From: Celeribacter baekdonensis
GTDB lineage: Bacteria; Pseudomonadota; Alphaproteobacteria; Rhodobacterales; Rhodobacteraceae
Direction of reading: 5' to 3'
Length of the DNA stretch: 64,000 nt
NCBI RefSeq assembly: GCF_003047105.1
Contig: NZ_CP028475.1
Coordinates: forward strand, 1-64,000
The notes under the pieces were generated by a model. It was given only the letters and a program-made list of their open reading frames with translations. It ran no database searches and was not told the DNA's origin. The position numbers and the translations under genes are program-made. Shown piece after piece: positions 49,134 through 57,176 of this stretch. Within the stretch, counting starts at the first letter, position 1; every line of letters starts with the position of its first letter.

Positions 49134-49299
49134 ATACCCTAAACTCAGGTTTAGGGCCGTAGGGCGGGGGTTTATGGCACCGGGTTTAGTCCCGTGGTTG
49201 GTAGAACTCAGTCAGGTTTGTCGGTGAAGGTGAGGCCATGCCGGGCGTGATCCCACGCCCCATTCATTGAAACCTGATCCCTTCGAAAAGGACCGACCC

Positions 49300-49764
49300 A
49301 TGCATAAAGTACTTTTGACATCCATCGCCTTCTTTGCCGCAGCAGTCCCCGTTTCGGCATTTGCCGAGCTGACCACGCAAGAGATTGTCGATATGTTCCC
49401 CGGCGCGCAAAAAATCGAAATCAAACGCCGCGCCAGCACCACCAAAGTGGAGGTGCTTGTGGATGGTGAAAAGATCGAAGTGACCTTTGACAATGCCACC
49501 AACCAAATCCGCAAACGGGAGAGTGAGCGTCTTTCCGACAATGATTTGGCGGATGAGCTTGATGACATTGAGCAGCATAATGGTGATACTTATGCTGACG
49601 ATGATCATGGTCGAGATGAAGGCGATGATGTAAGTGACGACGATGATGCCAACGACGATGACCATGGCAGCTCTCACGACAGTGGTGACGACCATGGCGA
49701 CGATGATGGTGGCGACGATGATGATGGCGACGACAGCGACGATGATGGTGGCGACGACCACTAA
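49300..49764 (+). CDS. Exported protein with Asp-rich tail (PepSY-like)
   Basis: 154 residues. MHKVLLTSIAFFAAAVPVSAFA is a Sec signal peptide. Residues 24-85 (ELTTQEIVDMFPGAQKIEIKRRASTTKVEVLVDGEKIEVTFDNATNQI) have the helix plus three-strand shape of a PepSY-like domain. From about residue 95 the protein is nearly all Asp, with Gly, His and Ser, a disordered polyanionic tail that would bind Ca2+ or other cations. At DNA level this is a degenerate gacgatgat repeat. First of three genes with another Asp-tailed exported protein and a membrane LuxR regulator. Confidence 0.75.
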   Translation: MHKVLLTSIAFFAAAVPVSAFAELTTQEIVDMFPGAQKIEIKRRASTTKVEVLVDGEKIEVTFDNATNQIRKRESERLSDNDLADELDDIEQHNGDTYADDDHGRDEGDDVSDDDDANDDDHGSSHDSGDDHGDDDGGDDDDGDDSDDDGGDDH

Positions 49765-49870
49765 CCCCCGCGGGCGTTCCGCCTTTGGCACGGCGCATAG
49801 CTGTGCCAAATGACCCCATGACGTCCCCCGCGAAACCGCGCGGGAGACGTTTTTTAGGTGAGGATAGACG

Positions 49871-50374
49871 ATGAATCGAAGACGCTTTTTTATAGGGCTG
49901 TCTGCGGCGCTCACCATGGGCGGGGCCGCACGGGCACAGCCTGCCGAAGATATGATCCTTGCGCAATTACGTCAGCAGGGGTTCAAAAAGATCACTGTGG
50001 GCCGCACTTTGTTGGGGCGGACGCGCTTTGTGGCGACGGGCAACGGTCAAAGGCGTGAGATCATTCTCAATCCGGTCACCGGCGAAATTTTGCGTGATTT
50101 TTGGCAGGATGAGATGGGGAACAAAGCCCCGCGGATTGTTGACAGTTCGGGGGGGCGAGATGACCGGCAGGGGCCGGAGGACGACACATCGTCCGATGAG
50201 GATAATGAGGCTGAGGACAGCCAGGACGATGATCAAAACGATGACCAAGACGATGACCAAGACGACGACAACAGCTCCTCAGATCACGACGACCACGAGG
50301 ATAGCCGCGACGAGAACGACAAAGAGGATGACGGTGGAGACGACGACGAGTCTGACGACGACAGCGAGGACTGA
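49871..50374 (+). CDS. Tat-exported protein with PepSY-like domain and Asp-rich tail
   Basis: 167 residues. MNRRRFFIGLSAALTMGGAARA is a twin-arginine signal (RRRFF). Residues 25-85 (PAEDMILAQLRQQGFKKITVGRTLLGRTRFVATGNGQRREIILNPVTGEILRDFW) again look PepSY-like. From about 95 a tail rich in Asp, Glu, Ser and Asn follows. It is similar in plan but not in sequence to the preceding gene, so the two may be an ancient pair exported by different routes. 106 bases downstream of it. Confidence 0.7.
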   Translation: MNRRRFFIGLSAALTMGGAARAQPAEDMILAQLRQQGFKKITVGRTLLGRTRFVATGNGQRREIILNPVTGEILRDFWQDEMGNKAPRIVDSSGGRDDRQGPEDDTSSDEDNEAEDSQDDDQNDDQDDDQDDDNSSSDHDDHEDSRDENDKEDDGGDDDESDDDSED

Positions 50375-50413
50375 GCAGAGGCCGCAATCCCATTTTATGC
50401 GGCAAAGGGAGGG

Positions 50414-50935
50414 ATGCGTTTGCAAGAACGCTATATAATTTTGACGATTTTCATCGTGCAGGCCATCTGCGCGTTTTTCTTTGTCTCCGACATCCTTGGA
50501 TCTGTGATCGGTCTTCGTGCCAACCCGATCGCGTGGCAAACCCGTGAGCTTATCGAAATTCTGGCCGCTGTCGGGCTGCTCCTTGGCCTTGGGCTGGGGG
50601 GGATTGCGCTTCATCGTTCATTGCGTCACCGGCAAAGAGCCGAGGATAAATTGCGCCGGGCCTCGTCGGCTTTTGTCGATGTGTTGGAGGAACGATTTGC
50701 GACCTGGTCGCTGACACCCGCCGAACGCGATGTGGCGTTGTTTTTGATCAAGGGCCTGTCCATTTCCGATATTGCGTCGGTGCGCGCCACATCGGAAGGC
50801 ACGGTCAAGGCACAGATGGGCGCGGTCTACCGCAAAGCGGGCGTGAGTGGCGCGGCCCAGCTGTTGAGTCTGTTCATTGATGATTTGATGGATGGTGTCA
50901 CGGTTGAGACATTACGCGACGATGAAGCCGCCTAA
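50414..50935 (+). CDS. Membrane-anchored LuxR-type regulator
   Basis: 173 residues. Two membrane helices (about 7-30 YIILTIFIVQAICAFFFVSDIL and 47-68 LIEILAAVGLLLGLGLGGIALH), a short charged linker, then a LuxR/GerE helix-turn-helix (SLTPAERDVALFLIKGLSISDIASVRATSEGTVKAQMGAVYRKAGVSG, about 106-155). There is no receiver or ligand domain, so the signal must come from the membrane or periplasmic partners. Begins 39 bases after the Asp-tailed gene, probably in one transcript. Confidence 0.75.
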   Translation: MRLQERYIILTIFIVQAICAFFFVSDILGSVIGLRANPIAWQTRELIEILAAVGLLLGLGLGGIALHRSLRHRQRAEDKLRRASSAFVDVLEERFATWSLTPAERDVALFLIKGLSISDIASVRATSEGTVKAQMGAVYRKAGVSGAAQLLSLFIDDLMDGVTVETLRDDEAA

Positions 50936-56298: not shown

Positions 56299-57176
56299 TT
56301 AGAGGCTCATGAAAATAGCAATGTTCTCGTGGAGTTTCATGTTTAGAAATTCAATGCCATAGGACATGTCTGGCAATAGGTTGATCATATCTTGGCCATT
56401 CGGGTCTTCGATGACCCCTTCAAACAGCGTTTCGAGCCCGACCCAGTCTTGCCACGTGTTGAACGCCGCCTGTTCAAGCACATCTGACTGTGGGGCGGGG
56501 GCGCTTGCCGGGCGCACGAAGGTCAGCTCAAAGATATTCTGATCGAAAGTGGCAAGGATGTCTTTGAGCGTCTCCACCTGTGCCGCACTCACTTGCGACT
56601 TGTGCGCGAGATGAATGAGACAGGCCTCTTTGCCTGCTTCTTGCAACAGTCGACTTTGATTTGTAGCGGTGGTGATGATCCTGGTTCGGACCAATTTTTC
56701 TGGCGCTTGGTTCACAGAGGTCTGAAGCTCCAGAGATTGTGCAACATTGCGCCAGAGTTTTTCCAGAGATTGCGATTTAAACGTGAGTTTAAGCACCTCT
56801 TCATCTGTCAGACCTGTCTCCGATAGAAAGGTCGCCGCTTTTTTGTCGAGCCCTTTCCAAACCATTTCGACAGAGCCAATTTGGGTGCGGATATTGCCAT
56901 TGGTGATCGGGGGGATGGCGTCATTGCCCTCAGCAAGGGCCACAAGCGCCGTAGAAATCTCCATGCGGGTTTGTTCGATCACCCGACGATTTCGAGCGAC
57001 GTCGATCCCGGCCTGGGCAAAACAGATGCTGCTGACAAGGCGATGACCAAGGGCCCCTGTTCCCCGACCAAAAGCACATGTTGGTCGTATGAGGCCTCGC
57101 CGTCCGAGGCGTGCAGGGCGCCGACATTGGAGGCTACAGTTAAGAAAATCACAAAGAGGAGGCGAATGAAGGGCAT
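56299..57176 (-). pseudogene. PilJ-type N-terminal-domain periplasmic protein, frame broken
   Basis: About 292 residues. MPFIRLLFVIFLTVASNVGALHA is a signal peptide. The frame from 57176 ends at 56979, and a second frame continues to 56299. Restoring one base in the CCCC run at 57054-57057 joins them as GEQGALGHRLVSSICFAQAGIDVARNRRVIEQ, which follows the pattern of the type IV pili methyl-accepting transducer N-terminal domain (G-x-Q-R-M-L-S-Q-R-like, then L-G-I-D). A second similar helical block follows. No output domain is present: a free periplasmic sensor-like protein (family noted from memory). Confidence 0.6.

Follow-up and report, generated by a model that had tools for sequence, protein, structure and literature searches.

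The locus examined here raises the question of what two exported proteins with long, aspartate-rich tails have to do with a small membrane-anchored LuxR-type regulator encoded directly behind them. It lies in the window, by which we mean the whole analysed stretch of 64,000 nucleotides from Celeribacter baekdonensis (NZ_CP028475.1, positions 1 to 64,000). A preliminary description had suggested that the three genes form one signalling unit, sensing divalent cations or envelope state. The features on which our analysis turns are the following.

49138..49155, no strand assigned: palindromic candidate operator CCTAAAC-TCAG-GTTTAGG, ahead of gene 1
49300..49764, + strand: gene 1, exported PepSY-like protein with an Asp tail, 154 aa, Sec-like signal
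49821..49855, + strand: terminator-like hairpin with a T run, in the spacer between genes 1 and 2
49871..50374, + strand: gene 2, exported PepSY-like protein with an Asp/Glu tail, 167 aa, twin-arginine type start
50414..50935, + strand: regulator with two membrane helices and a LuxR/GerE helix-turn-helix (HTH), 173 aa

The three genes are real and their previously described boundaries are exact, although the span given for them, 49300..50935, leaves out the palindrome at 49138-49155. They lie on the same strand, 3′ of a gene that we call a putative trpB by resemblance, with 106 bases between gene 1 and gene 2 and 39 bases between gene 2 and the regulator gene. Both Asp tails were confirmed: the C-terminal 76 residues of the gene 1 product contain 36 Asp (47%), and the C-terminal 83 residues of the gene 2 product contain 34 Asp (41%) and 9 Glu. 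The window has 196 six-frame open reading frames of 100 aa or more. In the two tailed proteins, Asp makes up as many as 23 and 21 of 40 residues, versus 9 in the runner-up; the tails are well beyond chance within the window. The signal types of both proteins were assigned by eye, as Sec-like for gene 1 and, on the N-terminus MNRRRFFIG, as twin-arginine type for gene 2. The earlier division into a Sec- and a Tat-exported protein fits the start of gene 2, but Tat is not constant, and we rejected Tat export as a defining feature because an RR motif lies ahead of only 50 of 123 gene-2 domains in the comparative set introduced below. Similarly, a terminator-like hairpin was found in 14 of 75 spacers between genes 1 and 2, which led us to reject it as a general device; in the window, the hairpin could make the gene 1 product more plentiful than the gene 2 product and the regulator.

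The preliminary description called both exported proteins PepSY-like. In Pfam, neither whole protein has a PepSY match, and the gene 2 domain by itself scores 12.9 bits against PF03413 and 13.5 bits against PF13670, below the respective cut-offs of 24 and 24.3. Matches to PepSY_2 appear in 12 of 23 gene-2 relatives when E values up to 1 are admitted. Profile-profile comparison by hhalign gave values of 97.1% for the gene 1 family and 89.8% for the gene 2 family against ten PepSY_2-type proteins (six of these ten were scanned, and all six lie above the PepSY_2 cut-off), and of 98.0% between the two families. The predicted fold of the domain appears compatible with PepSY, and a Foldseek search with it returned no PDB match at an E value of 0.001. 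A search of the organism's own genome with the PF03413 profile yielded no match, even though the small protein encoded beside a paralogous regulator there is a clear PepSY_2 protein, so sequence search alone is insufficient for this family. On the strength of the profile comparisons, we regard genes 1 and 2 as encoding divergent PepSY proteins that fall below the Pfam cut-offs; the label PepSY-like is favoured by those comparisons, although both proteins miss the Pfam cut-offs, and no family name was obtained for either product. Among close relatives, 82 of 84 aligned residues are conserved in the gene 2 domain, versus 64 of 78 and 39 of 76 in the tail. The contrast is smaller in gene 1, with 70 of 78 in the domain versus 55 of 75 and 58 of 74 in the tail.

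The regulator was described as membrane-anchored and of the LuxR type but without a sensory domain, and all three parts of this characterization agree with our results. Its HTH scores 27.0 bits against Pfam GerE (PF00196), above the cut-off of 23.5; its Pfam matches include no receiver or kinase family, and no sensory domain was recognised in it. The structural model (pLDDT 89) predicts helices at residues 3-32 and 41-97, separated by a loop of about 8 residues, and four HTH helices into which the second long helix runs on. The charges flanking the helices (MRLQER before, HRSLRHRQRAEDKLRR after) suggest, by the positive-inside rule, that the loop faces outwards. Between the membrane helices lies a conserved P..W...E segment; its W...E motif occurs in 119 of 120 regulators from cassettes like that of the window versus 8 of 30 others, a contrast that is understated because several of the ‘other’ regulators look cassette-type with a missed neighbour. 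Among proteins of solved structure, the closest in sequence are GerE and response regulators including VraR and NarL (7ve4, 4gvp, 1je8, 1fse), and the NCBIfam model NF047608 (LIC13292 family regulator) matches the HTH half only, at 56.4 bits and thus below its cut-off of 200. In the protein database, 4,653 relatives have E values up to 0.001, and among the 120 best of these, names, where given, are ‘CsgD family’ or ‘helix-turn-helix’ regulator. In strain B30 of C. baekdonensis, the regulator is 98% identical.

We then asked how often these genes occur together. Among 101 relatives, 55 have a match to the regulator and 31 a match to the gene-2 domain, and for 38 of 39 gene-2 domain matches a regulator is encoded no more than 2 kb away. 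A second sample, drawn from the order and comprising 244 genomes, has the gene-2 domain in 101 genomes and the regulator in at least 141 at E values up to 1e-12. The two samples overlap by at least seven genomes, and the genomes within them are related, so the counts are not independent. Of 147 gene-2 matches in the order sample, 113 are strong (E values up to 5.8e-10), and at least 102 of these have, among the matches listed, a same-strand regulator 90-442 bases downstream; the 11 without one are possibly overcounted, because they were compared with the best 150 regulator matches only. Taking the best-scoring regulators instead, 89 of 90 are accompanied by gene 2. Recurrence across Rhodobacterales was thereby checked, and these linkage counts clearly contradict the outcome that the genes are rarely adjacent; both counts support one unit that is conserved in the Rhodobacter family. 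Three loci (L060, L061 and L062) each carry two regulators of the family, about 0.8 kb apart.

To compare the make-up of the unit, loci from the relatives, the order sample and named contigs were pooled and deduplicated by sequence, giving 123 distinct pairs of gene 2 and regulator. This set is non-random (60 of 113 places were chosen, and 30 loci came already from the gene-2 domain search), and in at least one of its rows (L024) a copy of gene 1 was counted as gene 2. The gene 1 position is occupied by a PepSY protein in 77 pairs (acidic-tailed in 70), by an EF-hand protein with an acidic tail in 2 and by another acidic-tailed protein in 6; in the remaining 38, nothing was detected within 900 bases. 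The gene 2 tail contains at least 30% Asp in 83 pairs and less than 30% in 40, which means that the Asp tail does not define the unit; we rejected it as the defining feature on this count and because the palindrome is independent of it. What stays constant in the predicted module is rather the regulator together with the PepSY domain of gene 2, to which 85 of 123 pairs add the upstream palindrome.

This palindrome emerged when nine loci of the genus were aligned 5′ of gene 1; its form in the window is CCCTAAAC-TCAG-GTTTAGGG. In the full motif, CMTAAACYNNRGTTTAKG, the flanks beyond the required core TAAAC-N4-GTTTA are symmetric too. A narrower initial scan found the exact core in 66 of the 123 pairs but never in shuffled sequences. 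When the 2.2 kb ahead of gene 2 are considered, the exact core is present in 85 pairs, and allowing up to one mismatch raises this number only to 92, so near-variants are few; it is absent from 38 operons, 6 of which have less than 1.2 kb of upstream sequence to scan. Core sites number 87 in 218 kb of upstream sequence versus 1 in 106 kb of downstream sequence. Their presence shows no association with the tail (57 of 83 operons with an Asp tail, 28 of 40 without).

Across whole genomes, the core and the full motif behave differently. The bare core has 2 sites in the organism's own genome versus 5 of a reversed control pattern, with background-like counts in other genomes. Genome-wide, the bare core is nonspecific and only the extended motif is specific. 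Within the 4.44 Mb of the own genome, the window palindrome is the sole exact match to CMTAAACYNNRGTTTAKG. The second exact core (window 56778-56791) lies within an opposite-strand open reading frame and has 3 mismatches to the window 18-mer; when the window was shuffled 100 times, at least two matches of this quality appeared in 30 cases. We judged this site, the only other core match, to be probably due to chance, and rejected a larger regulon in this genome. Among the 244 genomes, the full motif is present in 33, once in each, versus 6 for the reversed control pattern. All 33 carry a match to the regulator, as judged by eye, and 32 of the 33 sites are at the regulator locus, where they precede gene 2 (in one genome, G261, the regulator) by 152-1549 bases. 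Since sites at these operons, some of them in the same genomes, served to define the motif, finding it there is expected and does not count as independent; what is informative is that other copies are nearly absent. The one site away from a regulator locus (G314, L227:1503, corresponding to G314:C23:58434) lies some 140 bases ahead of a leftward gene that encodes 211 aa and is followed by what we take to be an AMP-ligase-like gene. A further locus (L235:1503-3020) has the full motif followed by three tandem genes for small, apparently exported proteins and then the regulator, and no PepSY genes were noticed in it. From these placements, we strongly infer that the regulator binds the palindrome; the sequence at 49138-49155 is most likely its operator.

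Paralogs of the regulator allowed a further comparison. One of them, in the organism's own genome, is 41% identical to the window regulator, and its gene follows those for a PepSY_2 protein and a cytochrome b561 (L031, G000:C4:1066500-1073000). We selected 62 paralog loci, of which L244 is incomplete and L048 and L271 have a PepSY gene of the gene-2 type. PepSY is encoded upstream in 43 loci, 26 of which also have cytochrome b561, and 19 have neither. PepSY genes without Asp tails go with the wider regulator family. A further locus (L030:1121-3331) consists of a tail-less PepSY_2 gene and the regulator gene, followed by a reading frame that presumably encodes a ferric-reductase-like membrane protein. 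TAAAC-N4-GTTTA itself occurs in none of the 62 loci. However, TAAGC-N4-GCTTA, in which one base is changed in each half-site, occurs in 6 of the 62 versus 0 of 160 cassette loci (duplicates included). Five of these six are among the seven loci whose HTH contains the string TVRAQ and one is among the 52 others that were readable, three loci having no string; a symmetric one-base change that tracks the HTH type is the pattern expected of a dimeric regulator and its site. Genome-wide, the evidence for this variant is weak: it has nine sites, three of them at such operons, and the reversed control occurs in 14 genomes. We also sought paralog operators resembling TAAAC-N4-GTTTA and rejected these candidates, which are single loci only (1 mismatch in L032, 2 in L036, L039, L040 and L049, and 3 or 4 in the other five of the ten).

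A precedent for how such genes might work together comes from Vibrio cholerae. In DbfQRS, the small exported PepSY protein DbfQ, encoded ahead of a two-component system, binds to the sensory domain of the kinase DbfS, loss of DbfQ alters signalling, and the system responds to membrane damage; two PepSY genes precede BqsRS of Pseudomonas aeruginosa as well (PMC12714742). Because the outline of the window unit, with two PepSY genes followed by a regulator, resembles that of these systems, we read it as a closed loop, and we consider it somewhat probable that the unit is a self-regulating envelope-sensing module of PepSY proteins and a one-component membrane LuxR regulator. The regulator would be a membrane-tethered LuxR-type transcription factor that binds TAAAC-N4-GTTTA ahead of gene 1 as a dimer and controls its own operon. 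The exported PepSY proteins, free or ligand-bound, would be its periplasmic partners, acting on its short loop and membrane helices and setting its activity as DbfQ does for DbfS. The Asp tails would bind cations, or cationic components of the envelope, and pass that state to the PepSY domains. The loop would then run from regulator to palindrome to PepSY proteins and back to the regulator. That the PepSY proteins contact the regulator is our inference by analogy; the predicted periplasmic loop of about 8 residues speaks against it, as it offers little surface for a partner.

The cation-binding step is the weakest of the proposed mechanism. The charge of the tails weakly suggests it, as do two loci in which the PepSY protein at the gene 1 position is replaced by an EF-hand protein whose tail is long and acidic. 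One of these (L105:911-1345) scores 28.6 bits, above the EF-hand cut-off of 25; the other (L057:2245-2616) scores 18.2 bits, below it, and a further gene intervenes before gene 2. That PepSY proteins can bind metals follows from LanPepSY, which is reported to bind lanthanides (PMC12482762).

If the regulator were constitutive and merely autoregulated its own locus, the exported proteins could be simple output that does not act back on it, as Asp-rich periplasmic buffers or chelators of cations. This reading would account for the full operator occurring just once in a genome, at its own operon, and for the acidic tail being kept where the gene 1 domain becomes an EF-hand (2/123) or is unrecognised (6/123). 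However, the gene-2 domain is better conserved than the tail that would do the buffering (82/84 versus 64/78 and 39/76), and the tail-less PepSY genes beside the wider regulator family point to the PepSY domain as the partner; we therefore hold a pure output role to be unlikely, with about one chance in four. Still less probable, in our estimation, is that an unrelated transcription factor binds the palindrome, or that it acts as an RNA hairpin, while the regulator works elsewhere. The palindrome could indeed form a hairpin, the symmetry of its flanks fits either reading, and a terminator-like stretch, seen by eye, follows the putative trpB just upstream. Against this, no T run follows the palindrome in the window, near-variants are few (85 exact sites, 92 with up to one mismatch), every one of the 33 full-motif genomes has the regulator, with 32 of 33 sites beside it, and changes in the paralog half-sites track the HTH class.

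Finally, the genes could be neighbours without joint function, kept together by chance or by their position behind trpB, a place that relatives such as L023 and L235 share. The tightly spaced linkage in many genomes contradicts this, above all the counts in the 244 genomes, and paralogous regulators and PepSY genes sit in other gene surroundings; we regard mere neighbourhood as highly improbable. Returning to the self-regulating module, a broader version is a tentative one, to which we give somewhat less than even chances: a family of membrane-tethered LuxR sensors, with private operators and dedicated PepSY partners, may do in Rhodobacteraceae the job of PepSY two-component systems, with Asp-tailed PepSY or EF-hand proteins reading periplasmic Ca2+/metal or envelope state and switching the regulator via its membrane helices, and with paralogs reading cytochrome b561. 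Such a module would account for this set of genes, the gene-2 domain of which occurs in 101 of 244 genomes of the order. The predicted link from operator to regulator is directly testable in laboratory roseobacters, and the unit would offer a way into the periplasmic role of polyaspartate tails.

How does the unit compare with known systems? One-component regulators of the ToxR/CadC type tether a winged-helix domain to the membrane by one membrane helix and have a periplasmic sensor domain. The window regulator likewise has a tethered DNA-binding domain, but its predicted loop of about 8 residues leaves it no periplasmic sensory domain. With LuxR/NarL/VraR response regulators it has the GerE-type domain in common, but it lacks their receiver and has two membrane helices instead. 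UipA is an exported PepSY protein that reportedly binds metals, and we know of no regulator linked to either UipA or LanPepSY. The latter, likewise exported and reported to bind metals, has two PepSY domains (PMC12482762). Closer to hand, the operons of PepSY_2, cytochrome b561 and regulator (e.g. that on G000:C4, L031) combine PepSY with the same membrane-LuxR family (41% identity), but differ in the cytochrome b561, in a canonical PepSY_2 protein without an Asp tail and in a half-site that is another one or was not found.

The unit had been said to match no described system and to be perhaps common in roseobacters but uncharacterised. It is common, as the distribution of the gene-2 domain indicates, and our search of the open-access literature, with subscription journals mostly outside its scope, found, among the papers listed, nothing on PepSY with a membrane LuxR protein, with aspartate-rich proteins or with cytochrome b561. 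PepSY together with LuxR led to a single iron-limitation study of Pseudomonas, and membrane-bound LuxR proteins to two papers on gut bacteria. DbfQRS is nevertheless the nearest worked-out precedent that we found (PMC12714742). In both, exported PepSY genes lie directly upstream of the regulatory genes, and BqsRS has two of them, as the window unit does; a promoter that reports the activity of its own system and a signal from the state of the membrane may be further likenesses. The passages on DbfQRS mention no Asp tails, whereas the window proteins are Asp-tailed, and DbfQRS has a kinase and a response regulator where the window unit has one membrane-anchored LuxR protein. What is new here is the upstream palindrome and the unit itself, which is best read as a variant of PepSY-linked signalling in which a single membrane LuxR protein replaces kinase and response regulator; if this is true, PepSY-controlled signalling extends from two-component systems to one-component membrane regulators.
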